Below, piece by piece: positions 8,036 to 62,000 of a stretch of 64,000 nucleotides of DNA. Origin of the DNA: Hericium rajendrae (lineage: Eukaryota > Basidiomycota > Agaricomycetes > Russulales > Hericiaceae). Positions within the stretch are counted from its first letter, which is position 1; every line of letters begins with the position of its first letter. A model generated the notes under the pieces. It saw only the letters and a list, made by a program, of their open reading frames with translations, did no database searches and was not told the DNA's origin. The translations under genes were made by a program, and so were the position numbers. The stretch spans positions 1,550,001 to 1,614,000 of the forward strand of contig CM065885.1 in NCBI GenBank assembly GCA_033439255.1, given 5' to 3'.

Positions 8036-8327
8036 CATCAGCAAACCTTTCCATTTACTTGTTGATCTGGTTTGCCTTTTTTTGATCTGGTTGATCTGGT
8101 TTTCATCTGGTTGATCTGGTTTTCATCTGGAAATTTTTTAAATATGCAATTTGAGGTTTCTAATATCTGTTATTATAATATTGCATCTTTTTTATCTATG
8201 ATGTACATATTCAAAATCACTCAAACTGCTTTTAAAAAATTTCAGAAAAAAACCAGATCAAAACCAGATCAACCAGATCAAAAAAAGACAAACCAGATCA
8301 ACAAGTAAATGGAAAGGTTTGCTGATG
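8036..8327. mobile_element. CATCAG-type fold-back element in Gypsy gag (292 bp)
   Basis: It starts CATCAGCAAACC and ends GGTTTGCTGATG. The arms are inverted over about 65 bp and contain repeats of GATCTGGTT, around an AT-rich core of about 130 bp. TG flanks both ends (8034-8035, 8328-8329), a 2-bp TSD. Removing the element and one TG restores the gag frame. Confidence 0.85.
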
Positions 8328-8568
8328 TGGTTTCCACAACCTCAATTGAAACCAAACTCCTTCGGCTTCCCAACGCTTCACAGCACAATAGCGGAGGAGG
8401 GGGATGAGTGCACTGCCCTCGATAGTGTTGGCGATGGGAAAGGGGAGATGAGGTTGATGGAATGGATGTCGAGATTCGGTGAAGATGTCGGCGGTGAAGG
8501 GTTCAAAGAAGAAAGGTATGATGGGCGATAGTAGGGAGGTGAGGTGGGTGTATGAGAGATTGTCCAGG

Positions 8569-8991
8569 TGTCAAGACTCGGTCGTAGACAGCAGAGAACC
8601 ACCCAAGTCACCAGCGATGATGGGAGCGAGAGAGCAGAGAGCGACTAGCAGCGCAGTGACCTGTATTGGAGGTACAGTACGGTACCGACGAAATGGACAA
8701 TCTAGGGAAATAGGCGAGCGACAGGGAGCCTATAAGTACTGGGACGACAATGGGAAAAGAACAATGGACACCATAATGGGTCGAACAATAGAGTGAGAAC
8801 AATGGTGGCCAAAAGGAGAACAATGGGAGGGAGAACAATAGGATGTCCCAAAGGGGAACAAGGGCATGGGTGAAGGATAGCCCCAGGTCATGTGAGGAAG
8901 TGAACATGTGATGGGGCTGCTGGAGCACATGACCGACGCGATGCCTTGATGGCAGAGAAGAAGGCGGAGAGAAATGGAGCGATCCGTGACA
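8569..8991 (-). repeat. 5' LTR of the Gypsy element (putative)
   Basis: Read on the minus strand it begins TGTCACGG and ends CTTGACA. A TATA-like CTTATAGG at about 8728-8735 is followed by a CT-rich run, as expected of a U3-R promoter. Two bases further on comes TGGACAATC, a primer-site candidate. No second LTR is in the window, so the ends are inferred from the TGT..ACA termini and from the Plavaka frame stopping at 8992. Confidence 0.55.
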
Positions 8992-11215
8992 TGTATCACT
9001 GAACACACATATTCTCCATCATCATCTACTTCTTTTTCTACCATTCACATCTCTGTATCTTCATCAGGTTCATCACCAACAGTTACAAACTATTGGATCA
9101 ATGTACATGAATAAGTGACTTCTTCATCATCAAATGAAAAAAATAGCAAGATTTGGCCAACATAGAGTCCTCTCATTTCAGGTAAAGTAGGATCATTTTT
9201 GATAAAAACACAGTCTTGGCAAGAAAAGCCTTTTCCATACCAGTCTCATGCTGATCGAATGCGATGACGATGAATGCTCTTCACATCTGATGGATCACTA
9301 GGTGCATAATATGTAGCCATTGCAGAGTGATAGATATTCAATTTTTCTGGAGCTAATGGACATTTTGAGATATCAACATTTAATGATGTATAATCAGAAG
9401 TCACATTTTTTTGATCAAACAAAAATTTGACGAATATAATTAGGTAGATTTGGCCTGCCAATAAATGTAGCAATTTGGTCAAGTGTTCGAGGATATTTTC
9501 ATGCACGTGTTTTTGCAAGTTTGACACCAATTTCAATCTCTTGACCAAAGTTGTCACTCAGTAAAACTTCATTAATTTCTATTAAAAAATGTGCTTGTTT
9601 TGAAGTCTCCAAATTCTCAGTTTGAACTGAACTTAAAGGTCTATCTAACATGCTACATTTTATAAAATTTTGTGTACAAGCATTAAGTTTATCAAGTCTC
9701 TGATTTGTAAGTAACATTTGTCCCAAAGCATTATAGCCACTAGATCTTCTCCAAGGCTCTTTAACAGCCTTTATATGTTTGGATTCTGTAATAGAGATGC
9801 AAAGTCCATTTGGAACTGCAAATTCCTCAATCAAGTGATGATCATGTTGTAAAGAATGTTGCCTTGGAAGTGATATTTCAAGTTCCAAGCGTACATCTAC
9901 TACTTCAAAGATTTTACGTTCTCTATGAAATGTTTCAAGAGCAATATCCATGGCATCTAAAGTATCCTCATCTATCATTGATCTTCAAGCAAGATAACAA
10001 AAATCTAAAAATGCACAAATTGTTCAAACCATTTGTGAAGGCACATGACCCTCAATTGCTGGCAAGAATACTTTCATCAGAGCTTTGAAATCATCTCCTG
10101 TCCATTGTTTAAAGTTATGACCATTAGAAAATCGACATAGTCCTGAAAATGAAGGTACAGCAGCAATTCTCCAATCAATATCTGCCATAATTATAGCTGC
10201 CTGAGTTGGTCCATGAAGAAGTTCAAGATATTCAAGAATCCAAGTCACCAAGTGATCTTTAAATGTTCCCTTAATAAGCTGATGAAGCAAGTCCAGAGAA
10301 ATAAGTTCATGAATATCTGCACGAGGAAAAGAATGTGTAAATGGCTAAAAAGAAAGATTTAAATTAGACTCAAATAAACATTCAAAACAATGTTAATTAC
10401 ATACCATAAAGTCTGCCACAATACTGTATTCTTCTCACAATTCTTTGTTGGTTAGCTTAGCTTCTATTAATACACAGGTATATTCATGTGATCGTGGAAA
10501 ACTATCACCAGTATCCAAATCCTTAGGTGAACATGTACAGTGTGGACATCAGTTTTGAACAATTTCACACATTAGACACTGTTCAGCATCAGGAAGGTTG
10601 ACAACTTTCTGATTGATCTGACAATTTCTAACCCTACTGACAGCTCCTGATTGACCTGATCCACCTGAAAGCAATCTTAACAAGCAAATATCTGATCAGA
10701 CTTTTACATTCAAGAAAAGACATTTATTGTCAGATATATAAGTTTTTAATCTCTAACTAATAGGTATATCAAAATCTTTGATATCTGAAATTTTCTAAAT
10801 CTGAGAGTGTCTGATCTGAGATTTTTTTCAAATCTGGAGGTCAAATATCTGAAAATTATCTGCAACTGTCTGAGAGCATCTGATGGTGTCTGACACTATC
10901 TGATCCATCTGACTGATATTTGACCTCCAGATTTGAAATCAGACACTCTCAGATTTTCAAAAATTTTAGATATCAAAGATTTTGATATATCTATTAGTTA
11001 GAGATTAAAAACTTATATATCTGACAATAAATGTCTTTTCTTGAATGTAAAAGTCTGATCAGATATTTGCTTCTCAAGATTGCTTTCAGGTGGATCAGGT
11101 CAATCAGAAGCTGTCAGTAGGGTTAAAAATTGTCAGGTCAATCAGAAAGTTGTCAACCTTCCTGATGAGGATATCAGACATTGCAGCACCTACCAATGCT
11201 ATCACTGTTTTCTGG
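8992..11215 (-). pseudogene. Plavaka-type transposase 1, C-terminal part, decayed
   Basis: Plavaka transposases are DDE-type enzymes of fungal DNA transposons. Reading from 11215 down: YPEQCLMCE and CPHC (zinc-binding), intron 10404-10345 (GTATGT..TTTAG), LHQLIKGTFKDHLVTW, FKQWTGDDFKALMKVFLPA (10140-10030), IDEDTLDA, PRQHSLQHDHHLIEEF, then SITESKHIKAVKEPWRRSS (about 9790-9735), and a tail to SVIHV at about 8992. All are family-typical. The frame contains several TGA stops (10024-10026, 9985-9987 and others), so it is inactive. It is cut by a fold-back element (10587-11167) and, at the C-terminus, by the Gypsy LTR. It belongs to a different lineage from the transposase at 40958-58808. Confidence 0.88.
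10587..11167. mobile_element. CATCAG fold-back element, copy A (581 bp)
   Basis: Ends CATCAGGAAGGTTGACAAC and its inverse, with TSD AG/AG (10585-10586, 11168-11169). Long inverted arms are packed with TCTGA/TCAGA words around an AT-rich centre. It lies in the Plavaka 1 frame, whose YPEQC motif spans the site. No ORF of its own. Confidence 0.9.
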
Positions 11216-17145: not shown

Positions 17146-17178
17146 AGGGGCCTTGTCTTCAGGAATGTCAGTGCCTGC

Positions 17179-19810: not shown

Positions 19811-20401
19811 CATCAGGAAGGTTGACAACTTTCTGATTGACCTGACAATTTCTAACCCTACTGACAGCTCCTGATTGACCTGATCCACCTGAAAGCAATC
19901 TTAACAGGCAAATATCTGATCAAACTTTTACATTTAAGTAAAGACATTTATTGTCAGATGAATAAGTTTTTAATCTCTAACTAATAGATATAACAAAATC
20001 TCTGATATCTAGAATTTTCTAAATCTGAGAGTGTCTGATCTGAGAATTTTTTCAAATCTGGAGGTCAAATATCTGAAAATTATCTGCAACTGTCTGAGAG
20101 CATCTGATGGTGTCTGACACTGTCTGATCCATCTGACTGATATTTGACCTCCAGATTTGATAAAGTTTTGGATCAGACACTCTCAGATTTTGAAAAATTT
20201 TAGATATCAAAGATTTTGATATATCTATTAGTTAGAGATTAAAAACTTTTATATCTGACAATAAATGTCTTTCCTTGAATGTAAAAGTCTGATCAGATAT
20301 TTGCTTCTTAAGATTGCTTTCAGGTCAATCAGGTCAATCAGGAGCTGTCAGTAGGGTTAGAAATTGTCAGGTCAATCAGAAAGTTGTCAACCTTCCTGAT
20401 G
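19811..20401. mobile_element. CATCAG fold-back element, copy B (591 bp), inside Copia integrase
   Basis: TIR CATCAGGAAGGTTGACAAC, TSD CA/CA (19809-19810, 20402-20403). Removing it and one CA gives FIAF-TTAAGITHQHT in frame. The same insertion is present at the same codon in Copia copy 2. Confidence 0.93.
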
Positions 20402-20402
20402 C

Positions 20403-28834: not shown

Positions 28835-28835
28835 G

Positions 28836-38585: not shown

Positions 38586-38905
38586 ACATAAGCAATTTAT
38601 AAGCAGGAAAAAATCGAAAAAAATCATTCAAGTCTAGAGGCAAATCATCAAATCATCTGAGAATAGGCACATACTGAGTAGCATTAAAAATCAGTAAAAA
38701 TCGTGTTAATATGGCCATTGATAGTACTATTCAGAAACACTTGAGTCTATGTTCATAGCTAGAGAATTGACAGAGATATAGCCAAATTACTGATTCAGAC
38801 CCCTAGAAGGCAAAAATAAAATCAATCTAGGCAACATACAACAGTTGACAGACCTTCCAAGGCCACACTTATGTACTTTATAAATGTAAACACAATTTTT
38901 GAGAA

Positions 38906-38951
38906 GTCACGTGCAACAGCGAGCCTGACCGGGCTCGCTGTTGCACGTGAC
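38906..38951. repeat. 19-bp stem hairpin with CACGTG at its base
   Basis: GTCACGTGCAACAGCGAGC (38906-38924), 8-nt loop, perfect inverse at 38933-38951. Confidence 0.85.
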
Positions 38952-41539: not shown

Positions 41540-41950
41540 CATCAGGAAGGTTGACAACTTTCTGATTGACCTGACAATTTCTAACCCTACTGACAGCTCC
41601 TGATTGACCTGATCCACTTGAAAGCAATCTTGAGAAGCAAATATCTGATCAGACTTTTACATTCAAGGAAAAACATTTATTGTCAGATATAAAAGTTTTT
41701 AATCTCTAACTAATAGATATATCAAAATCTTTGATATCTGAAATTTTTCAAAATCTGAGAGTATCTGATCCAAAACTTTTTCAAATCTGGAGGTCAAATA
41801 TCAGTCAGATAGATCAGACAGTGTCAGACACCATCAGATGCTCTCAGACAGTTGCAGATAATTTTCAGATATTTGACCTTCAGATTTGAAAAAATTCTCA
41901 GATCAGACACTCTTAGATTTAGAAAATTTTAGATATCAGAGATTTTGTTA
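41540..41950. mobile_element. CATCAG fold-back element, copy E, left part
   Basis: Starts CATCAGGAAGGTTGACAAC, TSD AA at 41538-41539. It breaks at GTTA where H1 inserted; the rest is 55488-55667. Confidence 0.9.
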
Positions 41951-42029
41951 TTACGATTCCTTAGAATCGTTTACTCTATACCGCCTTTTCATAGTGAAAA
42001 CGACACCAAAACGATGACTATGCCCATTA

Positions 42030-42090
42030 GGCAGTTGGCTTATATAATCACATATCTTCAATCTAACGAGTTTGCAGGTTCAACTCCAGC
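42030..42090 (+). other. tRNA-like pol III promoter stretch in H1
   Basis: TTGGCTTATATAATC resembles box A and GGTTCAACTCC, 37-47 bp later, box B, in a T-arm-like context (GCAGG TTCAACT CCAGC). Equivalent stretches lie at 37382-37445, 53587-53646 (minus) and near 63690-63745 (minus). Not a functional tRNA gene by eye. Confidence 0.5.
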
Positions 42091-42805
42091 TCTAGCCAAA
42101 CTTTGTTGATTTAATGTAACTTGATCAGTTCTCAACCAATTCACCTGTTCTCAAATGCATCTGGATCTGCTCATTTATTGCTTTCTGACAGTATTTTTTG
42201 CATCCTGATCTGTGCAGAACTCATAGAATGCAATGAATTTCTACATTTTCCCTTTATGACACTTGAACTTGAGCTAACTCAGTCCATTCTTCACCGATTT
42301 ACTTGTTCTCAAATGCGTCTAAATCTACTCACTTATAGCTTTGCTACCATACTTCATGCATCCAAATCGGTTAAGAACTCACAGAATGCAAAGTGTTTCT
42401 TTTTTTTCCTCTTCTAAAATGCTTGAACCCTAGCTAACTAGGCCAATTCTCAACCAATTTACTCGTTCTAAAATGCATCAGAATCTACTTATTGATAGCT
42501 TTCTGACGGTACCTTAGGCGTTAGGATCGGTGCAAAACTCGCAGAATGCGAATTGTTTCTGCATTTTCCCCCTAGAATGCTTGAACTCCAGCTAACTTAA
42601 TCAGTACTCAACCGATTCACTTGTTATCAATTGCATCCAAATATACCAGAAAACTGGTCTCTAACATAATTTACTGCTTATAGAAAGATACAGCCACTAA
42701 AATGATACACAGCAAACAAATGTACATACTGTTTATTGATAAAATGAGCAAAAAATGCAATTTATCGGTAGCAGTGGGTCCTGAGACTCGGTCATGTGAT
42801 CTTAC

Positions 42806-42833
42806 AAGACCTTGTGCGGCCGAACAAGGTCTT
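42806..42833. repeat. AAGACCTTGT hairpin, first copy in H1
   Basis: 10-bp stem AAGACCTTGT/ACAAGGTCTT around GCGGCCGA. A TCATGTGATC palindrome-like site lies just before it. Confidence 0.8.
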
Positions 42834-43558
42834 AGCGCCTGCTTACATAAGCATAAGTCGGTTAGAGAGCCAATACACTGTATACAGTGATTGCTTTATA
42901 GCTCTGCAACAAAGCAATCAATCGACAAACGGTAAATTGTGTTCATATATCTTGAATTACATCTTTCCAACCCAATTTAGAATATCAAAATCGGATCACT
43001 GTAAGCAGAGATATTCTTCGATTTATATGCTATATTAGCAAAACAGTATTGTCTCCTATCTCAACAACCAATGGTGCTATGATGTTGTACACTGTATTGT
43101 TAGAAAGCTATTGTAAATCTGAGTTCAACAAGCCCTCATACATCATGATTGATGCAGTATCAGCAGAGCTATAAAGCAAACAGTCTGCCACATCATCATA
43201 GACATATAGTCCAATACGTCAGCATTTTGTCATGCTATTTTGTTGTTTGTGGCACTATTCTAGAGCTATTGTAAATCTGATTCTAACAAGCTTTAACTCA
43301 TTCTGATTGATGTGGTATTGAGAGCTCTATGGCCTGATCTCTATGCCACATCATCAGCAGAAAGTTGGTGATGGCCCCACACCATCATTGGACACCTCAG
43401 CCGCAACTCGCTGCAGATGGGGACTGGGCGTGTCCAAGCCTTGTAGTTAGTGTGCACTACTGGTAGTGTCACACTGACTTCAAAGCTATCTGAAGAAAAG
43501 AAGAGAGAGCAGAGAGCGCAACATCAACTACTGCTGACATAAGCTAAGCACAGCCACC

Positions 43559-43584
43559 AGACCTTGTGCGGCCGAACAAGGTCT
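43559..43584. repeat. AGACCTTGT hairpin, second copy in H1
   Basis: AGACCTTGT and ACAAGGTCT around GCGGCCGA, followed at 43591-43600 by GATCACGTGA. Confidence 0.8.
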
Positions 43585-45639
43585 GCTATTGATCACGTGA
43601 TTGGCCATTAGCTTTGTTCAACAATACAATGTTTGACATTGATCATATATTCAATCTTGAATCTTGTTTGATTAGACATACAACTAGACTACTATTATAA
43701 TTGTAGATATTACAAGTATTTATAATATAAGCATATATAATAGTGTATATCATATATCGAGCTGAGTATAATAAGATATGACAAGTGTGTACTGTATTAC
43801 ATACCAGATTATATATATAATAAGGTACTAAGATATATAACATAGCAGAAAATATAGAGTTATCAGAGGTAGGAGCTGAACTACTCATGATTAGATTAGA
43901 TTAAACAGTGTTTTTTTATATGCTTTAGGGTTCGACACGAGTCAGAGTCACCTGTAGGTCAACATGGGTATACCCACGAAATTGACCTGCAGGTATCTAA
44001 CTCATAGATCTGAATCACTTGGTGGCTGAGACCTGTACAAATCCAGATCAAGGTTGTGCTCAAACCCATTGACCTGTGAGTGACCTGTGGGTAACCTGCT
44101 ATCCAAACTTTATTTTGGTTAACATATTATATTGCAAAGTTCAAATCTATATGTCATGATCCCTAACTAACTACATACTATATGTCATCTGCCAACACTA
44201 ACTTACAGCTCCAATCACATATGCACATTATCACTATATCTTGTCATACCCATGAAGTGTATAAAGTCTACAAGCAAGGCATGGATTCAAAAGGCTGCAT
44301 ACGACATACTTGTAGCATCGACATGGGCATGTGCATGTCGGTGGGGCAGCTTTAAGTATGTGTGTGCACATGGGCTGGCACATGTGCAAGGGGAGCATAT
44401 GTGGGTGCTGGTGTACTGGCATAGCTGTGGGCATGCACACACAAATGACATCACCAGCTTGGATGGAAATTGGGAATGAGACCGGGAGGGTGCATTTTGA
44501 TTGTTGAATAGCACTAATGGCATATAAAACTTGCCTCACATTGGGCTTCTGTCAGACGAATGATATGACAGCATGCATAGTGGCATGTGTGATGTCCATG
44601 GGCATGAATGCACACATGTAGTTTGAGCAATGGACTATGGGATGGTGGGGGCATGTAGTCAAAAATGTGTATGCTGGCAGGGCATGTATTGGTAGATGCA
44701 CACTGTCTCAGACATGCAAGGATATGCAAAGCTGTTTGTAGACAACTGCGCATTGTTGAGGCATGCTAGGCACTGCTCGGATGATCAGCAAAAAGATGTC
44801 AAGCCTTGCTGTTGTAGCAACAATGCTGTAGCAACAAGACCTGACAGGCATTGTGGGCCTTGCAGTTGCAGCGCTAGACTGGCACTGTGCATGCTCTTAC
44901 TGTTGTGAGTGGGAATTAAATCTCTGGTACACATGAGTACTGGTTGTCGAAGATGGGTAAGGGCCGGTTGGCTGGTTGACCTGTTGATGAGGACGATGGG
45001 AGAAGCACAGATGGTACACGAAATATGGTAGATGATGTCAAAAAATGGTGGGATGTCATGAAACCCATCAAACATCATGAAACCTGTGGAAGAACAGTGA
45101 AAAATGAGAGCCTTGCCTGTTATCGAGTGAGACTCCTGAGATCAGTACAGTACAATGAAATAAAAGGCTTTTGGACTCACTTAGAAGCCTCTCGAATCTC
45201 CATAACACCCATCCTGCCATTGAATTGAGGAGATATGGTAAAAAGGGGAGGATTAAGATGAAGAAACAAAGAGAAGGGCATCGTAAAAGTGAGACACAAC
45301 TTTCAGACCAACTGACTTGCAAGTGACCTGTGATGTCACAGATACCTGACCTGCAGCTCCAGATCACCCAGTGGTGCAAATCTGCATGGATCCAGGTCAG
45401 CACCTTGGACAGATAGAATACCTGCGAGTTCAAATCTAGGTCACCCACGAGTGCACTTGTGTTGAACCCTAATATACTTGGGGGAAGAGGGCCAATGCTG
45501 TGCATGGCAAAACAATTCCTTTTTTTTTTATCATCAATGAAGATATATAAATTACCATCATATATAGCCATGTACAGGTACACTGACATCTTGCATGCAG
45601 GCTTATACCTCATGCCTTATACTTGGCATGTAGCATTGT

Positions 45640-46230
45640 GCTAGGGCCAGTGCCTCGTGCATGCCTGCTACACCTCGTGCATGCCTGCTACACCTCATGC
45701 CAGCCCACTATACCTCATGTTCACTGGTCACACCCTATGTTGGTCCACCACATCTCGATGTACCTTGTGGATGGGCCAGTGACAGCTTAGAGATGGCTAC
45801 AGCTGAATGTGAGCATGTCAGCCAGCACAACCATATACATGCATTGTGTGTTGCTAAGTGCAGGTGTGTCACCTGCCTGTACCTTGTGCCTCATGCCTCA
45901 TACACAGACATACCGAGCCATGCATAGGCTTAGTGCCTTATGCATGCTCACCATGCTACACTACATCTTGCATACAAGCCACCATCCCATAGATGCTTAC
46001 TGTACTTCATGTACAGGCCCACAGCATCTTGACACCCTGCACATGCTTGCAGCACCCTGTGCATGGCCACCACACCCTGTTGATCTCCTGTACAGGCTAG
46101 TAGCAGCCCTACACATGGACCTGCATGCCTTATGCTCACTCTCTATGCCTCATGCATGGCTCTCAATATCTCACACATCCTCGCTACCCATTGCATCTTA
46201 CATATAGGTCCACTACAGCTTAAAATTGGT
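45640..46230 (+). repeat. Degenerate CTCATGCATGCC repeat block in H2
   Basis: About 600 bp of short diverged units built on CCTCATGCATGCC or CACCTCATGC. Its partner is about 54770-55330. CpG is scarce and TG/CA frequent, in contrast to the CGCGCATGGGCC block at 50080-51030. Confidence 0.6.
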
Positions 46231-47561
46231 GAGCATAGCCACTGGACCTCCTGCACAGTCATGATGCTTGTCATGCCTTGTGTATGAACCTAGTGTCTTA
46301 TGCACATATGTGCTTTTGTTGTGCCTTGCTAGTGCACACATGCCTGCACATAGCTCTACCTGTACATGATGTACACCACTGTGCATGTGTGCACTGTTTG
46401 AACTTGTAATATACTTGATTGTACTAGTAGCTGTATGAAATATAATTGATTTTGGCTTTATATCTCTTGTACCTGATTGATCTGAGACAGTACTAATAGC
46501 AGAGATCATAGTAGGGACCATATAGATCAGAGCAAGCCTTTGAATTTATGTGATTTGTACAACAACTACAGCTATCCTTCAGAAACATGTAGCACTATAT
46601 AGTGTCCAACTACTGTTATAATAGCTATGATAGACCTCATAGCCTTACATAGTTGAGAACTGTGGCTGCATAAATAGTGATAGACTTTATAGTGCTATGA
46701 TAGGACATATAGATCAACACTGGGCTATGTGAAATTTCAAATTTTCAGATGATACACACTACACCAACTCATATATGCACTCTTGGCTCACATTTTTTTA
46801 TCTATGCATACTTTTGTTAATCTGCTTACACATGTATCAACCCATAGGCATCACAGCAAACTTATGTATGCTCCTACTACCTCATACATTTTCTGTTAGC
46901 CTGTGCACCTTTTATTAATTTGTATGCATTGCTGCTAGCACCAAAGGCAGAATTTAATTTCTATATTTGGATTTTATTTCTGACTTTTACAAAAAATAAC
47001 ATAAATCATTTGTAAATCATACCAGTTTTTTTAATAGAGCTTATATCTCTTCAATGTATAATCTAGTCAGTATTTTTCTATTTTACATGCATAAAACACT
47101 ATTAAAATTGAATTCTCACCTTCAAACCATATTTTGTATACTGGCAGAAATTAGTGACCAAATATGGCAACTACTTTCTGGTAAAATTGCCTGTCAATTA
47201 GCATGAAGGTCCAAAAAACTCATACAAATGCATGAGAGCATCAATTGTGCAAACATCACTTTAAGCATATTAGGGTTCAACACAAGTGCACTTGCAGGTG
47301 ACCCAGATCTGAACTCACATGTATTCTATCTGTCCAAGGTGCTGACCTGGATCCATGCAGATTTGCACCATTGGGTGATCCAGAGCTGCAGGTCAGGTAT
47401 CTGTGATATTACAGGTCACCTGCAAGTCAGTCAGTCTTGAAGTTGTGTCTCACTTTTACGATACCCTCCCCTCTGTTTCTTCATTTTAATCCTCTCCTTT
47501 TCACCATATCTCCCCAATTCAATGGCAGGATGGGTGTTATGGAGATTTGAGAGGCTTCTAG

Positions 47562-47634
47562 GTGAGTCTGAAAGCCTTTTATTTTATTGTACCATACTGA
47601 TCTCAGGAGTCTTGCTCGATAACGAGCGAGGCTC
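47562..47634 (+). ncRNA. Short intron followed by a hairpin, unit in H2
   Basis: Intron 47562-47606 (45 nt, GTGAGT..CTCAG), then GAGTCTTGCTCG (47607-47618), loop ATAA and CGAGCGAGGCTC (47623-47634). All twelve pairs form if two U-G pairs are allowed. Confidence 0.5.
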
Positions 47635-49265
47635 TCATTTTTCACTGTTCTTCAACAGGTTTCATGATTTGACAAGTTTCATGACATCCCACCATTTTTT
47701 GACATCATCCATCATATCTTGTGCACCATCTGCACTTCTTCCATCGTCCTCATCAACAGGTCAACTGGCCAACCAGCCCTCACCCATCTTCGACAACCAG
47801 CACTCATGTGCACCAGAGATTTAATTCCTACTCACAACGATAAGAGCATGCACAGTGCTAGTCTAGCACTGCAACTGCAAGGCCCACAATGCCTGTCAGG
47901 TCTTGTTGCTACAGCATTGTTGCTACAACAGCAAGGCTCGACATCTTTTTGCTGATCATCTGAGCAGTGGCCCCCTAGCATGCCTCGACAATGCGCAGTT
48001 GTCCGCAAACAGCTTTGCATATCCTTGCATGTTTGAGACAGTGCGCATCTACCAATACATGCCTATCAGCATACACATTTTTGACTGCATGCCCCCACCA
48101 TCCCATAGTCCATTGCTCAAACTACATGTGTACATTCGTGCCCATGGACGTCACACACGCCACTATGCATGCCGTCATGTCATTTGTCTGGCAGAAGCCC
48201 AATGTGAGGCAAGTTTTATATGCCATCAGTGCTATTCAACAACCAAAATGCACCCTCCTGGTCTCATTCCCAATTCCCATCCAAGCTGGTGATGTCATTT
48301 GTGTGTGCATGCCCACAGCTATGCCAGTGCACCAGCACCCACACATGCTCCCCTTGCACATGTGTCAGCCCATGTGTGCACACATACTCAAAGCTGCCCC
48401 ACTGGCATGCGTACACCCATGTTGATGCCACAAGTATGTTGCATGCAGCCTTTTGAATCCACACCTTGCTTGTAGACTTCATACACTTCACTGGGGTACT
48501 AATCAGAAAAATGTGTAAGTGGTACATAGCTCTATAAAGTCTATATAGATTTCATAGTTCCATAGCACTGCCCTTTTCTCTATAGCCAGCATAGCTAAAG
48601 AGGAATGCTATGTAGTGCTATGGAGCTGAAGAGTGATGCTATGGAGTACTATGATAGCTATGATAGCTAACTATGCAGCTATGATAGTATGACTAGCTAT
48701 GAAAGCTATAAGTGTCTATCAAAGCTATAAAGCTTATATATCTTACATATTTTATATTCAATATGTGTCTTACATATCTTATATTCAGTATGTAGACCTG
48801 ATATATATATATTGAAATCATAAAGTCTATTAGAACTATAAATCTTTTTACAATCATATCAGAATTAGTGACATATAATCACACAGATATAAACTATTTC
48901 AATGCATCAAGATTATACTAATATTATAAACACTACTACTAACTAAAGAGCAAAACAAATATATTTTTATTTAAAAAAAAGTAAGATAAGATAAGATAAG
49001 TGAGTAAGATAAGATGAATGAGTAAGATAAGATAAGATGAGTGAGTAAGATAAGATAAAGAAAAGAATATAAGAAACTATATAAGTAAGAAAAGATAAGA
49101 AATCATTAGTCTGAAAAGATAAAGATAACACATAAAAACTTACCAAAGTAACAAAAAGCGAAATCTAGAAGACAAACTTAAAGACATCAGTATTAGTATG
49201 AGCAATAAGAGACTAACAATAAAAGATTACCTTAAAGACAGCAACAACGAGCAAGAAATGATGCT

Positions 49266-49420
49266 CAACGAGTAAGAGACAACGACGAGCAAGTAAGAGA
49301 CAACGACGAGCGAGTAAGAGACAACGACGAGCAAGTAAGAGACAACGACGAGCGAGTAAGAAACGATGACGAGTGAGCAAAGGACGTCGACGAGTGAGCA
49401 AAGGACGTCGACGAAGGCAT
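49266..49420 (+). repeat. 21-bp minisatellite
   Basis: Units of GAGCAAGTAAGAGACAACGAC with A/G variation, about five copies, then two copies of the related GAGTGAGCAAAGGACGTCGAC. Confidence 0.8.
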
Positions 49421-49873
49421 CGACGTGGCAGGAGACAGTGGGGGTTAGGAGCAAGAGGTAACGCGCATCGCGCGAGCCTTATATACGAAGCTCGGGCGGA
49501 GCCGGGATTTGACGCTTGCCGAGCATCGCATCAGAGACTGGCGCCAGACTTAACTAAGTAGATTTTGCTACGCAAGGATGCAACGTATAGTAAATGGCTC
49601 GAAGTCTGACTAGTTTTGATTGTATGTACAATAGATAGTTGTTCCCTTTTTATTTGAATTTATATGATTTTATTAGCTGAGTGAAGGCTCGAAATCTAAA
49701 GCTTCGACTCGTTCGGTGGCTGAAGCACCGAACCGCGCGTCGAAGTTCGTCTCGACTGTCTTCCTCAACCACCCTGGCCACTCCTCCAGTCACCCTCTTT
49801 CCTTCATCCCTCCCCTCTGTCTCCCTTCAAAACGAAAGCCGCGGGGGATAAGTAGCATGTAGAGGGGTTCAAG

Positions 49874-49947
49874 GTAAGTAAGAAATTTACCTTCTTTCAT
49901 TTGTTTTTGCTAACGCAGAGAGTATCGCTCATTCGAGCGATACTCTC
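49874..49947 (+). ncRNA. Short intron followed by a hairpin, unit 2
   Basis: Intron 49874-49918 (GTAAGT, branch GCTAAC, GCAG) and then GAGTATCGCTC/GAGCGATACTC (49920-49945) with a 4-nt loop. Confidence 0.5.
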
Positions 49948-52083
49948 GACATCTTCCCCTTCGCATGCCCCTCCATTCCTCTCGCCTCCTGCCGCCGTCT
50001 CCACATCATCGACTCACCCCCCGACATCGCCGCTACCACCGCAGAGGCTGACGCGCTGTCTCCAACGACTGCGACTGCGTGCGCTGGCGCGTGCACACCA
50101 CCGGACAACGTGTACGCGGGCCTGCTGCCTCGCGCATGGGCTTCGCCCCTCTCGCACGACCTCGCCGTCCTGCGTCCCGAATTGCTGCCTGGCGCATGGG
50201 CCAGCCACCTTGTGCGCGGCCTCCTCGTCTCGCGCAGGGGCCGACGCGTTGCACGCAACCCCGCCGTGGTCTGTGCGCATGGCCAGTGGGACAGGCAAGC
50301 ACGCGCGCACGTCATCCACAGCTGTGCGCTATCATGTCGCAGCCGACGCCTCACACGCGGGCTCCGCACGTCGTACTCCACGTTGCCGTCCAGCATGCGG
50401 CTAGTGCGCCTCGCGCGCAGGCTTACCGCACCGTGCACGGACCCGCGGCAGCGTGTCGACATCGCCAGCTCGCGTCACACTCCGGCGCACAAGGCTGCTG
50501 CATTGCGCATGGCCTCCGCGCCGCGTCCCAGCTCCTCTATCTCGCGCACGGGCCCGGCATCTCAACCACTTACGCACAGGTCCCGGGCCTTGCACATGCC
50601 CGCCACATCTCGCTCATGCCCCTCAACACACCACGCACGCACTCAGCACCGGCGCCGTCTCGCGTACACCGTCCGCACCTCGTGCAGGCCCGCCGCGGCC
50701 CTTGCACGTCCCTCGTGCCTCACGCATGGGCCTGCCGCCTGCCGCCCTTATGCACATTCCCCACGCCTCGCGTATATGCCTGTGGCAGCACGGCACCCCC
50801 ACGCATGGGCATCCGCATCTCGCGCACATACCCTACGGCCCTGCGTGAGCCCGCGACAGTCCGGCATGTCGCGCACAGGCCCTGGGCCTCCACGTTTCCC
50901 GTGCGCAGTCCGCGCTCTTGCGCACGGGCCCCGAGCTTCGCACGTGGCCGACGCGTCTCACACGCAGCGTCACGCACACCAGCTGTGCCTTTGTGTGGTG
51001 CATGCTTTGTCGCACCTCGCGGGCGCACGTGTCACGTAGTATACTTGTTTGTAGTAGTAATTAAATATAATCAAATTTGACCTGTTTCAAGTATATTTTG
51101 CTCGAAATCATAGACTCTACACTGACTACAGATATTATAGCAGCCTGAGGGTCCATAGTAACCTTTAGAAGCTCTGTATGGAACATAGTCTCTATAGGAT
51201 ACATAGAGGTAGACAGAGGATACATAAGTTACATAGTAGGCATAGTAGTGTCCTGTTACTATGTAATACTATATACCCATCACCTATGACTATGATAGCT
51301 ATGATAGCTACCATAGTCCTGTATAGATGTGTGGCCCAACTACATAGTAGCCATAGCACTATGAAACCAGACATAGCATTGGCTGGCAGCTATGTAGATT
51401 TCACATTTTTGAGATGTATGGTGAGATATAGTGATAATGGGCATATATGATTGGGGCTGTAAGTTAGTGTTGGCAGATGGCATATAGTAGTATGTAGTTA
51501 GTTAGGGATCATGACATATAGAGTTGAACTTTGCAGTATAATATGTTAACCAAAATAAAGTTTGGATAGTAGGTTACCCGCAGGTCACTCGCAGGTCAAT
51601 GGGTTTGAGCACAACCTTGATCTGGATTTGTACAGGTCTCAGCCACCAGGTGATTCAGATCTATGAGTTAGATACCTGCAGGTCAATTTTGTGGGTATAC
51701 CCATGTTGACCTACAGGTGGCTCTGACTCATGTTGAACCCTAAAGCATATAAAAAAACACTATTTAATCTAATCTAATCATGAGTAGTTCAGCTCCTACC
51801 TCTGATAACTCTACATTTTCTGCTATGTTATATATCTTAGCACCTTATTTTATATATAATCTTGTATGTTATACAGTACACACTTGTCATATCTTATTAT
51901 ACTCAGCCCGATATATGATATACACTATTATATATGCTTATACTATAGATACTTGTAATATCTACAATTATAGTAGTAGTCTAGTTGTATGTCTAATCAA
52001 ACAAGATTCAAGATTGAATATATGATCAATGTCAAACATTGTGTTATTGAACAAAGCTAATGGCCAATCACGTGATCAATAGC

Positions 52084-52108
52084 AGACCTTGTTCGGCGCA
52101 CAAGGTCT
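52084..52108. repeat. AGACCTTGT hairpin in H2, first copy
   Basis: AGACCTTGT/ACAAGGTCT, loop TCGGCGC, with TCACGTGATC just upstream (about 52068). Confidence 0.8.
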
Positions 52109-52841
52109 GGTGGCTGTGCTTAGCTTATGTCAGCAGTAGTTGATGTTGCGCTCTCTGCTCTCTCTTCTTTTCTTCAGATAGCTTTGAAGTCAGTGTGATA
52201 CTACCAGTAGTGCACACTGACTACAAGGCTTGGACACGCCCAGTCCCCATCTGCAGCGAGTTGCGGCTGAGGTGTCCAATGATGGTGTGGGGCCATCACC
52301 AACTTTCTGGATATCTTCTGATGATGTGGCATAGAGATCAGGCCATAGCTCTCTCAATACCACATCAATTAGAATGAGTTAAAGCTTATTAGAATCAGAT
52401 TTACAATAGCTCTAGAATAGTGCCATAAACAACAAAATAGCATGACAAAATGCTGACCTATTGGACTATATGTCTGTGATGATGTGGCAGACTGATTGCT
52501 TTATAGCTCTGCTGATACTGCATCAATCATGATGTATGAGGGCTTGTTGAACTCGGATTTACAGTAGCTTTCTAACAATACAGTGTACAACATCATAGCA
52601 CCATTGGTTGTTGAGATAGGAGACAATATTGTTTTGCTGATATGACACATAAATCGAAGAATATCTCTGCTTGCAGTGATCCAATTTTCATATTCTAAAT
52701 TGGGTTGGAAAGATGTAATCCAAGGTATTTGAACACAATTTACCGTTTGTTGATTGATTGCTTTGTTGCAGAGCTATAAAGCAATCACTGTATACAGTGT
52801 ATTGGCTCTCCAGGCGACTTATGCTTATGTAAGCGGGCGCT

Positions 52842-52869
52842 AAGACCTTGTTCGGCCGCACAAGGTCTT
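52842..52869. repeat. AAGACCTTGT hairpin in H2, second copy
   Basis: AAGACCTTGT/ACAAGGTCTT around TCGGCCGC, followed by GATCACATGACC. Confidence 0.8.
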
Positions 52870-55487
52870 GTAAGATCACATGACCGAGTCTCAGGACCCA
52901 CTGCTACCGATAAATTGCATTGTTTTGCTCATTTTATCAATAAACAGTATGTACATTTGTTTGCTGTGTATCATTTTAGTGGCTGTATCTTTCTGTAAGT
53001 AGTAAATTGTATTGGAGACCGGCTTTCTGGTATATTCAGATGCATTTGAGAACAGGTGAATCGGTTGAGTACTGATTAAGTTAGCTGGAGTTCAAGCATT
53101 TTAGGGGGAAAATGCAGAAACAATTCGCATTCTGCGAGTTTTGCACCGATCCTGACGCCTAAGGTACTGTCAAAAAGCTATCAATAAGTAGATTCTGATG
53201 CATTTTAGAACGAGTAAATCAGTTGAGAATTGGCCTAGTTAGCTAGGGTTCAAGCATTTTAGAACAGGAAAAAAAGAAACACTTTGCATTCTGCGAGTTC
53301 TTAACCGATTTGGACACATAAAGTATGGTAGCAAAGCTATAAGTGAGTAGATTTAGATGCATTTGAGAATGAGTAAATCGGTGGAGAATGAACTGAGTTA
53401 GCTCAAATTCAAGTGTTATAGAGGGGAAATGTAGAAATTCATTGCACTCTGTGACTTCTGCACAGATCAGGATGCAAAAAATACTGTCAGAAAGCAATAA
53501 ATGAGCAGATTCAGATGCATTTGAGAACAGGTGAATTGGTCAAAAATTGATCAAGTTACATTAAATCAAGAAAGTTTGGCCAGAGCTGAAGTTGAACCTG
53601 CAAACTCGTTAGATTGAAGATGTGTGATTATATAAGCCAACTGCCTAATGGGCATAGTCATCATTTTGGTGTCGTTTTCACTATGAAAAGGCGGTATAGA
53701 GTAAACGATTCTAAGGAATCGTAACTTAAAGTGATGTTTGCACAATTGATGCTCTCAGGCATTTGTATAAGTTTTTTGTTACTCTAAACCTTCATGCTAA
53801 TCGACAGGCAATTTTACCAGAAAGTAGTTGCCATATTTGGTCACTAATTTCTGTCAGTATACAAAATATGGTTTGAAGGTAAGAATTCAATTTTTATAGT
53901 ATTTTATGCATGTAAAATAGAAAAATACTGACTAGATTATACATTGAAGAGATATAAGCTCTATTTAAAAAAAAAACTGGTATGATTTATGTTATTTTTT
54001 GTAAAAGTCAGAAAAAAATCCAAATATAGAAATTAAATTATGTCTTTGGTGCTAGCAGCAATGTATACAAATCAATAGAAGGTGCACAGGCTAACAGGAA
54101 ATGTATGAGGTAGTAGAAGCATACATAAGTTTGTTGTGATGCTCATAGGTTGATACATGTGCTAATCAACAAAAGTATGCATAGGTCAAAAAATGTGAGC
54201 CAAGAGTGCATATATGAGTTGGTGTAGTGTGTATCATCTGAAAAATTGAAATTTCATATAGCCCAGTATTGATCTATATGTTTTATCATAGCACTATAAG
54301 GTCTATCACTATTTATGCCACCACAGTTCTCAACTATGTAAGACTATGAGGCCTATCATAGCTATCATAACAGTAGTTGGACACTATATAGTGCTACATG
54401 TTTCTGAAAGATAGCTGTAGTTGTTGTACAAATCATATAAATTCAAAGGCTTGCTCTGATCTATATGATCCCTACTATGATCCTTGCTATTAGTACTGTC
54501 TCAGATCAATCAGATACAAGAGATATAAAGCCAAAATCAATTATATTTCATACAGCTACTAGTACAATCAAGTATATTACAAGTTCAAACAGTGCACACA
54601 TGCACAATGGTACACATCATGTACAGGTAGAGCTATGTGCAGGCATGTGTGCACTGGTAAGGCACAACAAAAGTACATATGTGCATAAGGCACTAGGTTC
54701 ATGCACAAGGCATGATAAGTGTCATAGCTGTGCAGGAGGTCCAGTGGCCATGCTCACCAATGTTAAGCTATAGTGGGCCTATATATAAGATGCAATGTGC
54801 AGTGAGGATGTGTGAGATATTGAGAGCCATGCATGAGGCATAGAGGGTGAGCATAAGGCATACAGGCCCATATGTAAGGCTGCTACTAGCTTGTACAGGA
54901 GATCAACAGGGTGTGGTGGCCATGCACAGGGTGCTGCAAGCATGTGCAGAGTGTCAAGATGCTGTGGGCCTGTACATGAAGTACAGTAAGCATCTATAGG
55001 ATGGTGGCTTGTATGCAAGATGTAGTGTAGCATGATAAGCATGCATAAGGCACTAAGCCTATGCATGGCTTGGTATGTCTGTGTATGAGACATGAGGCAC
55101 AAGGTACAGGCAGGTGACACACCTGCACATAGCAACACACAATGCATGTATATAGTTGTGCTGGCTGACATGCTCACATTCAGCTGTAGTCATCTCTAAG
55201 CTGTCACTGGCCCATCCACAAGGTACATCGAGATGTGGTAGACCAGCATAGGGTGTGACCAGTGAACATGAGGCATAGTGAGCTGGCATGAGGTGTAGCA
55301 GGCATGCATGAGGCACTGGCCCCAGCACAATGCTACATGCCAAGTATAAGACATGAGGTACAGGCCTGCATGCAAGATGTCAGTATACCTGTACATGACC
55401 ATACATGACGGTAATTTATATACCTTCATTGATGATAAAAAAAAGGAATCGTTTTGCCATGCACAGCATTGGTCCTCTTCCACCAAG

Positions 55488-55667
55488 TATCTATTAGTTA
55501 GAGATTAAAAACTTATATATCTGACAATAAATGTCTTTACTTATATGTAAAAGTCTGATCAGATATTTGCTTCTCAAGATTGCTTTCAGGTGGATCAGGT
55601 CAATCAGGAGCTGTCAGTAGGGTTAGAAATTGTCAGGTCAATCAGAAAGTTGTCAACCTTCCTGATG
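55488..55667. mobile_element. CATCAG fold-back element, copy E, right part
   Basis: Continues 41540-41950 after H1 and ends CCTTCCTGATG, TSD AA (55668-55669). Both parts together are about 590 bp like the other copies. Confidence 0.9.
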
Positions 55668-55772: not shown

Positions 55773-56353
55773 CATCAGGAAGGTTGACAACTTTCTGATT
55801 GACCTGACAATTTTTAACCCTACTGACAGCTCCTGATTGACCTGATCCACCTGAAAGCAATCTTGAGAAGCAAATATCTGATCGAACTTTTACATTCAAG
55901 GAAAGACATTTATTGTCAGATATAAAAGTTTTTAATCTCTAACTAATAGATATATCAAAATCTTTGATATCTAAAATTTTTGAAAATCTGAGAGTGTCTG
56001 ATTTTAAATCTGGAGGTCAAATATCAGTCAGATGGATCAGACAGTGTCAGACACCATCAGATGCTCTCAGACAGTTGCAGATAATTTTCAGATATTTGAC
56101 CTCCAGATTTGAAAAAATTCTCAGATCAGACACTCTCAGATTTAGAAAATTTCAGATATCAGAGATTTTGTTATATCTATTAGTTAGAGATTACAAACTT
56201 ATATATCTGACAATAAATGTCTTTACTTAAATGTAAAAGTTTGATCAGATATTTGTCTGTTAAGATTGCTTTCAGGTGGATTAGGTCAATCAGGAGCTGT
56301 CAGTAGGGTTAGAAATTGTCAGGTCAATCAGAAAGTTGTCAACCTTCCTGATG
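55773..56353. mobile_element. CATCAG fold-back element, copy F (581 bp)
   Basis: TSD TG/TG (55771-55772, 56354-56355). It lies 4 bp before the 5' splice site of the transposase intron at 56358-56409. Nearly identical to copy G. Confidence 0.92.
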
Positions 56354-58808
56354 TGGGGTGGGTATATTTGTTGCAATTCGTGGATGGCACTGACCTCATC
56401 ATCTTTCAGCTGCAGGTACCATCGCGCTTGGGTCTGTCTTATAACAATGTTCGTTCCATGCTGCAACTTGTGGACAAAATTCCTGCTCGTGCAGAATGGA
56501 AGACGTGGTATCTTACATTTCCTGACAGACCAGAGGAACACCATTTTATTCAATATCGCAATCCCCTGGAAGCCATTCAGGCCTTGCTAGGCAACCCTGC
56601 ACATGCAAAACATATAGTCTACAAACCCTCAAGAATATTCTCTACGTCAGAGGCTACAGGGCTCAAACAAAGAATTTACCATGAGATGTGGACGGGTAAA
56701 TGGTGGAATAGCCTCCAAGTGCATACAACTCTGCATCTCAAGGCTTATTGTTAACCTTTAATCACAGGATGCTATCCCGAAAGGACATACCCTCATGCCC
56801 ATAATTGTTGCTACTGACAAAACCCAGTTGACGCAATTCACCGGAAGCAAGACGTCCTATCCCGTGTACCTTACCCTTGGAAATATTCTGTGATCTATCC
56901 GTCGTTGTCCCACCCAGCATGCTTGCATTCTAATCGGATATCTCTCTGTTGCCAAAATTGCAAAAGACGGACTTGGCAAGGCAGAAAGAAAGGCTTGTGC
57001 TCAGACGCTGTTTCACGATTCTATGTAAATTGTACTAGAGCCTCTAAAAGCTGCAGGCAAGAATGGATACCACATTACCTGTGGTGATGGGGGAGTGTGC
57101 ATCATCCATCCAGTCCTGGCATGCTATGTGGCAGATTACCCAGAGCAGTGTCTGGTGACGTGCACAAAATACGGGGATTGTCCAAAGTGTGCCACTGATG
57201 CTGATCATCTTGAAGAACGTCAGCCTGAAGTCCGTCAAACTCATGAGGAGACTTTGAAGGTCATGGAGAAGGCTGGTCAGGAGACGAAGTCACGTTCTGC
57301 CTTCAATAAGGCCTGTAATATGAAGAGAGTGTCAGGAATATGTGAACCTTTTTGGGCTGGATTTCCTCACACAGACATCTATCGCTCCATGACTCCAGAT
57401 GTACTCCACCAGCTTTACCAAGGTGTTTTCAAATGGATCATAGACTGGTGTGGGACCATGCTGACAGACAAGGAATTGGACGCACGAGTTCGACGCTTGC
57501 CTCTGTCTTATGGTGTTCGGCATTTCAAGAATGGCTTTTCTGCCTTGGCTCAGATCTCAGGCCCTGAATGTAAGAATATGGCAAAGATTCTTCTTGGCTG
57601 TCTCATCGGATGCATTCCAACAAAAGCTCTAGTTTCGCTGCAAGCTCTTTTGGACTTCATTTATATAGCTCAGTACCCGATGCATGACAAGGATACCCTA
57701 GGATATCTGGAGAAGGCATTGGATGAGTTTTTCAGCAACAGAGACATTTTCAAAAACCTGAGAATATGGTCAAACTTTAACATTCCAAAATTCCATTCCC
57801 TTCTTCATTACATGGAAAGCATTCGACTCTTCGGCACTATGGACAATTACAACACGGAGATGTTTGAGTGCTTTCATATCGACTTTGCTAAGGAGGCTTG
57901 GAGAGCCTCGAACAAATGCAACAAACGGCCACAGATGGCAGCTTGGCTCACAAGGCGAGAAAAGGTGGCCATGTTCAAAAGCTTCATAGAGGACAGAGAT
58001 CTGCAGGCAAAGCAGCAAATGGCAAAGTCACACACCATCAAGGATACTATACAGATAGCAAAGTGGCCCCCACATGGAAATGTTTCTCTCAGGACTATTG
58101 AGGAGGACCACGACACTCCCAAATTCTGCTATGCCCTCAAGGAGTATATTAACTCTCTCTTGCCAAATGATGAACGGCTGAAAGGTCGCTCAAAGGGACG
58201 AGACCTAGAGGAAGGTCTCTTGCCTTTTGACAAAGTGTCCGTCTATGATAACTTCAAGTTCAAGAGAACAGAGCTGAGGTATACAGACATTATGTCTGCA
58301 GAAGAAAAAGAGTGAGAGGCAGTAAAAGCACAACCAGCATCTGGAACATGGCCTGCAAGATTTGACACTGTAGTTGCTTTGTATTCTAAAAAGGCAGAGT
58401 CTACAGGCATTGCAGGCAGGTTTTGAATTAAAGATTTAGAATTCTCTATTCTAACTTTGTCGCACAGGAACTAGAGTGGGAAGATTGCGAGTAATCTTCA
58501 CTCTACCAAAAAATGTTGCACACTTCACGGCAGCCTGGACGTCAGAGCCACTAGCCTACGTGGAATGGTACACCCCCTTCAAGCTCAGTGCAAGTGATAA
58601 ACATATGATGTATCAGGTATCTGTTTCTAAGGAGAGGCAAGGGCAGGTAATTCCCTTGACACAGATCAGACAATCCTGTCAGTTGATTTCTGAGTTCAGC
58701 ATAAGAAATGTAAAGGCTACTTGGACCTCAGATAGAGTATTAGACCAGGCAGATACTTTCTACGTAAATAACTGGGCTAGTACCTACACGTACCAAACAA
58801 TATGGTAG

Positions 58809-59076
58809 TGTAATAAGATTATAACTTGCTTTCAGCTACTGCAACTACAGAAGGCTTTTTTTGGCTACGGCAACACAAATGACATCTACAGATTTCTAAA
58901 CTGGATTGTGCCTTGGATTATTACATCTACAAATGCAAAAGCTAATTTACGGTTATCAAAATCTGTCTATTACATCACTGACTCTGTATCCATAGTTTCT
59001 GATCAGCATCAGTAGTGCCTATCAAGCTTCCAATGCTGAGTAATCGATCTTGACGTACTTGCGGTTTTTCTTGATG
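58809..59076 (+). repeat. Right terminal region of the Plavaka element
   Basis: AT-rich, no gene. It holds GCTACTGCAACTACAGAAGGC and related words that echo the left end, and closes with CGGTTTTTCTTGATG before the TA duplication. Confidence 0.6.
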
Positions 59077-62000
59077 TATATGAACACAATCCTGGATAAG
59101 TGCTTCAAAGAATTGGGTATCATGCACCATAAAACTATGCTGTATATGCCTCAGCAAAACAGATGTGCAGAGCACTGGAACTGTACCTTTATGGAGAAAG
59201 CCCTGTCTATGTTACACCATGCAGGCTTGTCTCTCGGTTTCTAGCAGCTAGCAGTTGATACAACAGTTTACATATACAACTGCACTCTCACTCGCGTACT
59301 AAAATGGAAGATGCCAATGGAGATTTGGGATGCTGGTCACATTTCTGATTTCTTATACTTCTGTGTTTTTGGCTGTAAAGCCTACTATGTACACATTCAG
59401 AAGGAGCATTGTCACAAGTTGAAGCCTAAATCCAAGGAAATGATGTTTGTGGGTTATGAGGATGGTTCTAAAGGTTATCATTTCTGGAACTCTACAACCC
59501 GGTCCATTGTCTTGTCTGGCAAAGCAAGATTCAATGAGACTTTCTTCCCTTTGTGACTAACCCAGAAAGTGCCCCTCAGTGCTCCTACTCCTCCTTTACC
59601 CAACCTGAGTCTCTCTGATTTATTCAATGATGATGACTTAACTCCACCACAAAGGCCTGTACCCGCTTCAGCTGATGCAGCTGAAGATGATGAGGATGAT
59701 GATCCTCAGCTCTCAGTCCTTAAGAAGGAAGACAATTCTAAGGTTACACCTAATACTACTCCACCTACTATACTGTGCAAGCCACAGCCACCTCAGACAC
59801 CACTGCCTCGCCCTACTACTCTGAGAATGCCCTAACACATATATCACCTACAATTGAACAGTCTCCTCTTGTAGCTGATCCTGTCACACCGTCAGCTCAT
59901 CCACAGTGGGTGAATGCTAGTCAATGGGCTCTCAGGCTTGGAGATCAGTATAGTGGCTTAACTGCCACTCAGATCCAGTGGTTGGACCTTCGTAGGCACA
60001 TACCAGAAACAGAGAATCATCCAGCCAGTCCTGTGCCCCTGACTCAGGACATGGTGTGATAGTTCATCAGGAAGGTTGACAACTTTCTGATTGACCTGAC
60101 AATTTTTAACCCTACTGACAGCTCCTGATTGACCTGATCCACCTGAAAGCAATCTTGAGAAGCAAATATCTGATCGAACTTTTACATTCAAGGAAAGACA
60201 TTTATTGTCAGATATAAAAGTTTTTAATCTCTAACTAATAGATATATCAAAATCTTTGATATCTAAAATTTTTGAAAATCTGAGAGTGTCTGATTTTAAA
60301 TCTGGAGGTCAAATATCAGTCAGATGGATCAGACAGTGTCAGACACCATCAGATGCTCTCAGACAGTTGCAGATAATTTTCAGATATTTGACCTCCAGAT
60401 TTGAAAAAATTCTCAGATCAGACACTCTCAGATTTAGAAAATTTCAGATATCAGAGATTTTGTTATATCTATTAGTTAGAGATTACAAACTTATATATCT
60501 GACAATAAATGTCTTTACTTAAATGTAAAAGTTTGATCAGATATTTGTCTGTTAAGATTGCTTTCAGGTGGATCAGGTCAATCAGAAGCTGTCAGTAGGG
60601 TTAGAAATTGTCAGGTCAATCAGAAAGTTGTCAACCTTCCTGATGTTGGACTTTGACCCTCCTAATCTCAATGCACTACTAGAACTGGGTGTTACTCGAG
60701 ATCCTCGTGATTATTCAGAAGCAATGGCTTCATCAGATTCAGCAAAATGGCATGAAGCATGTCAGTATGAAATGGACCAGCTTTATAAGCTTGGTACATG
60801 AGAGTTAGTAGATTGACCTCAAGATAGGAAGATTGTAAAGAATTGTTGGATTTTCAAGGCTAAGATCAATGACATTAATCATGCACATCTAGTAGCCAAA
60901 GGGTTTACACAGGTTCATGGAGTAGATTACATGAAAACCTGCAGTCCAGTCACTCGCTTCAAAACTATATGTTTCCTTCTTGCACTAGCTGTGCAGGAAG
61001 ATTGGGGAATACATAGCATGGATGTCAAGTCGGTATTCTTACATGGTGAGCTAGATGAAGAGATATTCATGGAGCAACCAGAAGGTTTTATGACTTCAGG
61101 AATGAAGGACAAGTTGGCTCGATTGCTAAAAGCTATCTATAGCTTAAAGCAGGCATCCAGAGTTTGGAACATTCAAATTGATGCTCTCTTGAAGGAAATT
61201 GGATTTACCAGGACCTATCTGAACACCAGTATATACATCTATCATTGACAGGAGGGGAATATAGTGACCATTTTGATCTTGTATGTCAACGACATGATGA
61301 TCATGGGCAATTCACTTTCAGAAATCAACTGTATTAAGACCTTGCTCAAGACTCGGTATGAGATATCAGACTTGAAAGAGTTAAAAGGCTTCCTTGGCAT
61401 GTGTATCATGAGAGATAGGCACAAGAGGACATTATCAATTGACCAGAAGACATATCTGGAAGAGGTCCTTGAACAGTTTGGAATGGATGAGGTGAACCCT
61501 GCCTGCACCCCTTTGCCTGCTGACTGCATGTTGATAGCATCCACTGAGGAAGTGGATAATGCACTCCAAACTTATTACCAGTCACTCATTGGCAGTATGA
61601 TGTACTTCACCATTGGCACTCGTTCAGATGTTACATATGCTGTCATTCCCTTGGCACAGTACAGTGCAAATCCCACTGAGAAGCATCTGAATATGGACAA
61701 GTACGTTTTGAGGTACATTAAAGGAACCCTCAACTACTCCATAGTTTATAATGGCTTTGTAGAGGAAGCTCAACTGCTATGCTACACAGACTTTGACTTT
61801 GCTGAGAATTGGGATGACTGTCACTCTATCTCAGCATTTGTTTTCAACCTGAGTGGTGGCACTATCTTCTGGATGTCTAGGAAGTAGGCTAGCTTTGCAC
61901 AATCCATAGCAGAGACAGAGTACATAGCAATGGCAGAGGCCACTAAGCAGTTGCAGTGGTACTATAACTTGCACCTAGAGCTCGGACTACTGGACCTCAC

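Follow-up and report, generated by a model that had tools for sequence, protein, structure and literature searches.

CATCAG insertions in the window

The stretch analysed here, hereafter the window, comprises 64,000 nucleotides of the genome of the mushroom Hericium rajendrae (assembly GCA_033439255.1, contig CM065885.1, positions 1,550,001 to 1,614,000). It carries nine short insertions, whose relationship to Plavaka transposons is the subject of this report. All nine begin with CATCAG, end with CTGATG and are flanked by identical dinucleotides (9/9, by direct reading), namely TG, AG, CA, TG, CT, TA, AA, TG and TT, exactly as listed in a first-pass annotation made from the sequence alone.

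Most of the insertions belong to one fold-back family, family A. Members occur at 10587..11167 (581 bp, target site duplication (TSD) AG), adjoining a remnant of a Plavaka transposase; at 19811..20401 (591 bp, TSD CA), within a Copia polyprotein frame; at 55773..56353 (581 bp, TSD TG), which is 85% complementary to itself along its full length; and at 60065..60645 (581 bp, TSD TT). A further copy is split into a left part (41540..41949, left TSD AA) and a right part (55488..55667, right TSD AA) by a nested repeat of about 13.5 kb, so that this insertion spans 14128 bp. The family C element (37106..39211, 2106 bp, TSD CT) has nested inserts inside it, among them an A-type element of 210 bp (37675..37884, TSD TA), and family E is represented by an element of 292 bp with CATCAGCAAACCTTTCC ends (8036..8327, TSD TG). 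The size range of 210 to 2106 bp given in the first-pass annotation thus describes the eight unsplit insertions and omits the split one.

The ninth insertion, at 28836..29425 (590 bp, TSD TG), is an inverted-repeat copy of the one at 19811 and stems from the same event. It had been called a duplicate before, and the alignment agrees, with blocks that are 99 and 100% complementary; the window therefore records eight independent events. The two copies lie in the arms of a large inverted repeat (17179-32057), built of blocks of 2.9 kb (100% complementarity) and 3.0 kb (99%), and both arms hold a Copia element with the 19811-type insertion. A lone end of a further family, B (CATCAGGAACCTTCAAAACTTTCTG), is present at 32954 on the minus strand with no recognised partner, and is probably a truncated or mutated copy.

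Removal of the elements was said to rejoin a host frame or gene exactly in five cases, of which two can be upheld. When the 8036 element is removed, another genomic stretch, L030, aligns across the empty site over 600/600 bases, ungapped and with 91.7% identity (C-numbers denote contigs, and L-numbers genomic stretches read, of the 46.8-Mb, 19-contig host genome). The rejoined 19811/28836 site is crossed by a frame of 399 amino acids, and the insertion separates matches to Copia gag/integrase from a match to reverse transcriptase. Frames of 184, 203, 192 and 206 amino acids also cross the rejoined sites at 8036, 37106, 41540 and 55773, respectively, but these say little, because 331 of 1000 randomly chosen window positions also have a frame of at least 180 amino acids; after this control, no weight was given to the frames at 37106, 41540 and 55773. 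No frame of at least 120 amino acids crosses the rejoined sites at 10587, 37675 and 60065.

Families and target sites across the genome

A genome-wide search with the 30-bp family A end (up to two mismatches) returned at least 208 forward and at least 201 reverse matches, and the reversed pattern returned none. The family is real and numerous in this genome. Family A, at 581 bp and 85% self-complementarity, is the commonest among the ends counted, and the median divergence of 47 compared copies from the majority sequence is 1.2%, which suggests recent spread. A 210-bp relative of the 37675 type is likewise common. Family B elements measure 401 bp, the ends of families C and E number 4+7 and 20+21, respectively, and several further families of about 210 bp exist. 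Short, gene-less, bounded by long terminal inverted repeats and present in many near-identical copies, these sequences have the features of miniature inverted-repeat transposable elements (MITEs); as expected for MITEs, the CATCAG elements of the window themselves encode no transposase.

The ends of most subfamilies have more in common than the extreme 6-10 bases that they had been thought to share. Families other than E also have a TTTCTG block beside CATCAG, ending at about positions 24-26; the 8036 family is without it. The search pattern used for family ends required this block, so that families without it were invisible to that search. Inside the ends, the pentamers TCTGA/TCAGA are abundant in six of seven miniature or partial sequences (25-61 per kb, against 1.4-2.6 in letter-shuffled versions): 32.7 per kb in family A, 52.4 in its 210-bp relative, 24.9 in family B, 26.3 in the left part of family C, and 61.0 and 46.9 in two 213-bp families. 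These subterminal repeats are the likely binding sites of the transposase.

Flanking dinucleotides were tabulated for element pairs with exact CATCAG..CTGATG tips, a length of 150-1200 bp and at least 19/25 identical end bases, in the loci read, which cover a part of the genome copies. After repeats had been removed by their flanks, 77 pairs became 75 distinct ones, and 70 of these have identical 2-bp flanks, where about five would be expected (0.066 chance per pair). All five misses were kept in the count, although one of them (L030:3864-4505) probably joins two adjacent ends that do not belong together; a 3-bp match fits one further pair. Shifting the flank positions gave 6, 4, 9 and 6 matches of 75, and excluding the six rows from the window left 64/69. 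Larger pairs have identical 2-bp flanks in 7/9 cases. A separate pair listing of 59 includes an artefact, two overlapping pairs at L048.

Contrary to what had been proposed, the duplications are not free of sequence preference. Among the 70, CA/TG was observed 24 times (11.7 expected), TA 20 (4.7) and AA/TT 15 (8.1), together 59/70. The other classes are below expectation: AG/CT with 5 (9.6 expected), AT with 3 (5.3), AC/GT with 1 (8.7), GC with 1 (4.5), CC/GG with 1 (6.6), GA/TC with 0 (9.0) and CG with 0 (1.8). Insertion sites thus tend towards pyrimidine-purine (YR) dinucleotides. The base before the duplication is C in 33/70 and the base after it G in 25/70; with C and G each at about 25% in the further flanks, the following G is only a weak excess.

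Two further loci are recorded here. At C7:2328306-2332524 (L064, L065), two family E ends form a pair spanning 4.2 kb, with flanks that fit a 3-bp GAG duplication and not a 2-bp one. The neighbouring MITE pairs L030:4207-4787/3762-4162 and L031:52-632/677-1077 have one flank in common and stand in inverted order, while their remaining flanks differ, an arrangement resembling recombination or duplication through MITEs.

Plavaka elements and the probable mobilisation of the miniature families

Two remnants of Plavaka transposase genes lie in the window, both recognised by profile match: a broken gene (PF18759) at 56440..58315 on the plus strand and a remnant covering profile positions 227-325 at 10237..10587 on the minus strand (C8:1560237-1560587). 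In the whole genome, 132 PF18759 matches merge into 81 loci, and two elements that contain such matches have the CATCAG ends and a 2-bp duplication. The first, of 8875 bp (C4:1832747-1841621), has the ends CATCAGAAACCCTACAAACTTTCTG and CATCAGAAAACTTACAAACTTTCTG, which differ at 2/25 bases, and flanks TA/TA; its end pairing was picked from a list of positions before the flanks were seen. Its PF18759 match is spread over two adjacent open frames, covering positions 1-288 and 290-325 (E = 1.2e-107 and 1e-14), as an intron would give; read in one frame, the match has two stops. The second, of 15,778 bp (C9:1831804-1847581), has CATCAGTACTCTTACAAACTTTCTG at both ends and flanks TT/TT, and its Plavaka match (1838480-1839505) contains five stops. 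The 8.9-kb element also carries the subterminal repeats, with TCTGA/TCAGA at 60 per kb in its first 400 bases, about 53 in its last 475 and 0-10 between.

The placement of ends relative to Plavaka genes points the same way. Of 62 right-type ends, eight that face outward lie up to 3.5 kb downstream of a Plavaka domain, against one that faces inward. Seven of these eight lie at 1.9-2.2 kb, each from a different Plavaka locus, and random shifting of the ends gave a mean of 0.95 and a maximum of 6 in 2000 trials. Farther downstream there are six outward and two inward ends, and upstream one outward and two inward; the signal is thus the fixed downstream distance. Right ends of Plavaka copies are close to those of family B (C7:2556871) and to those of the 213-bp family of L076 (in L051).

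These ends belong to a kind of transposon that is already known, since the pattern found here is that of the published PlavakaB termini and duplications. According to the available text of a study of Agaricomycotina (Kojima 2025, PMC12730594), PlavakaB elements have 5'-CATCA..TGATG-3' termini, duplications of 2 or 3 bp and a Plavaka transposase, whereas PlavakaA elements have 5'-TGT..ACA-3' termini. All nine window insertions and both elements with Plavaka matches have PlavakaB-type termini, and the C4 and C9 elements hold a Plavaka match between complete ends; the nine window elements start with CATCAG and not with the PlavakaA terminus. Candidates for two transposase motifs of PlavakaB, C(2)C and H(3-4)H, the latter here as H(3)H, can be read by eye: CPKC and HSLLH in the remnant at 56440..58315, and CPHC and HSLQH in frames of L049. 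The families in the portion of that paper available are transposase-bearing, whereas the window elements are gene-less and miniature, mostly of 210-591 bp.

On this sequence evidence, the CATCAG insertions are very probably non-autonomous MITEs of the PlavakaB kind, that is, of CACTA-related (CMC/CMCT) cut-and-paste transposons, moved in trans by a Plavaka transposase. As such they add new non-autonomous members to a kind of transposon described before. The miniatures would be reduced to the parts that the transposase probably requires: the CATCAG...CTGATG tips, together with the TCTGA/TCAGA subterminal repeats in most families. Supplied from another locus in the genome, a Plavaka transposase would bind the repeats, cut the element at its tips and, by a staggered cut of 2 bp, insert it into a dinucleotide with YR bias, which would leave the 2-bp target duplication. 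We infer this mobilisation because the ends, the repeats and the duplication size are common to the miniatures and the Plavaka elements, and the suggestion of the first-pass annotation that a Plavaka-like transposase drives them is supported to that extent. Its remark that CATC ends also occur at Plavaka termini is borne out by the C4 and C9 elements and not by the window's own remnant.

Several observations weigh against this interpretation. What the sequences show directly is that ends, repeats and duplication size are held in common and that Plavaka genes lie inside elements with such ends; transposition itself was not observed. Limited searches found no CATCAG ends for the window's own Plavaka remnant (56440..58315). 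The right end at fixed distance occurs in only 7/81 Plavaka loci, and repeat-rich regions may be enriched in Plavaka loci and in ends alike, an effect that random shifting of the ends corrects for only in part. Four Plavaka copies were fetched without knowledge of their ends: L049 and L051 have a CATCAG right end, none was found in L050 or L052, and only L049 also gave a left end. Both right ends came from a search for CATCAG with TTTCTG; looking blindly for inverted ends near the four copies had shown nothing clear. Left ends of the copies in L051, L054 and L055 and of the copy at C9:1939157 were not found within the stretches fetched, and TGT..ACA ends of the PlavakaA type were not found among the best six candidates each around L050, L052 and the window remnant. 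Among the matches listed, about the first 100, none places a Plavaka element between exact family A ends. Family E is poor in TCTGA/TCAGA (3.4 per kb), unlike the other families tested, and is tied to Plavaka by one right end (C9:1942816), 2.6 kb beyond a Plavaka gene for which no left end was found. Finally, 2/9 larger pairs are without 2-bp identity, one fitting 3 bp and the other nothing.

Alternative explanations fare worse. Duplications of two bases are short and easily matched by chance, but the notion that the matching dinucleotides reflect chance or an artefact of end selection is practically negligible in the face of the pair counts, which stay high outside the window and collapse when the flanks are shifted, and of the empty site at 8036, matched without a gap. 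Mobilisation by classical CACTA/EnSpm transposases (PF02992), which also give short duplications, is very improbable. The genome does contain 31 PF02992 matches, and the available text of PMC12730594 gives 2-5 bp as the duplication range of the wider group, within which the size seen here falls; the same text, however, assigns 5'-CAC..GTG-3' ends and 3-bp duplications to EnSpm itself. Measured against the 114 ends listed for families other than A, none of the 31 matches lies within 8 kb, the nearest being 12.5 kb away, whereas 19/81 Plavaka loci do, and it is for Plavaka genes that ends were found at a fixed distance. Likewise, none of the listed family A ends is near a CACTA place, a comparison made only by eye. 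No autonomous element of another superfamily with identical ends came to light.

It is also conceivable, though unlikely, that family E belongs to a different group of transposons with a convergent CATCAG tip, while the other families are Plavaka MITEs. Its inner end sequence differs and the pentamer enrichment is absent, as such an origin would allow. Yet the CATCAG tip and a 2-bp duplication recur in 8/8 further family E copies (L067-L074) and in one in L055, and the end beyond the Plavaka gene on C9 is closely similar to that of family E.

Within the PlavakaB interpretation, we tentatively raise a more specific possibility, which we consider rather doubtful: that family A has lost its autonomous partner and spread recently by cross-subfamily movement, with Plavaka transposases that would recognise no more than the tip CATCAG, the block TTTCTG and subterminal repeats of the TCTGA type, and prefer C-YR targets. 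If true, the tip and the subterminal repeats, and not a specific long end, would form the PlavakaB recognition code.

MITEs of CACTA/EnSpm transposons are known to have short terminal inverted repeats, subterminal repeats and 2-3 bp duplications. They differ from the elements described here in their CACTA/CAC tips, as against CATCAG, and in that the associated transposase here is Plavaka. Abundant Plavaka elements in a mushroom genome are also described for Marasmius oreades, where the accessible text refers to a terminal inverted repeat motif in a supplementary figure (PMC8290104, PMC9674265). For Rhizophagus irregularis, the available part of PMC11075540 places Plavaka in the CACTA/CMC/EnSpm superfamily and calls short elements with terminal inverted repeats and no transposase MITEs; unlike the present analysis, it gives no Plavaka termini and ties no MITE to Plavaka. 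The word 'MITE' is absent from the texts of PMC12730594, PMC8290104 and PMC9674265, 'miniature inverted-repeat' occurring in PMC9674265 only in a reference title, and no Plavaka MITE is described in the available text of these three papers or of PMC11075540, a search that left Repbase and most of the subscription literature outside. Plavaka miniature families may well be catalogued elsewhere.

Plavaka elements are common in mushroom genomes and little studied. Hundreds of short, clean-ended copies make the PlavakaB terminal motif, subterminal repeats and target preference directly readable, and annotators should profit from the miniature families, since such copies might otherwise go unclassified. 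Nothing here overturns present knowledge of the Plavaka group.

Nested and neighbouring repeats

The insert that splits the 41540 MITE (41950..55487) is another repeat and not part of the CATCAG element; its junctions are exact only to a few bases. By eye, its head is tRNA-like (..ATTCCTTAGAATCGTTTACTC, with a box-B-like GGTTCAACTCC), and a genome-wide search for this head returned 122+125 matches. Some stretches of the window copy are repeated or inverted within it, and four of its open reading frames, when tested, gave no Pfam match. Within the 37106 element, the interior (37300-39174) is bounded by short matches to the same repeat, of 142 and 48 bp. A Helitron source for the insert was considered and dropped, since the list of PF14214 matches showed, by eye, no convincing arrangement. 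The 5855-bp element in L009 (C1:165334-171188), at one time a candidate for an autonomous family A element, is actually a family A MITE split by a repeat of the same kind (insert L009:504-5779), at a position other than that in the 41540 copy.

Beyond the Plavaka gene of L050, CTGATG recurs about every 142 bp (L050:6582-7719), perhaps as amplified subterminal sequence. At the start of the window, identical direct repeats of 300 bp (3-302 and 4663-4962) are perhaps the long terminal repeats of one retroelement, and part of their sequence is also present at L076:640 and L076:5301.

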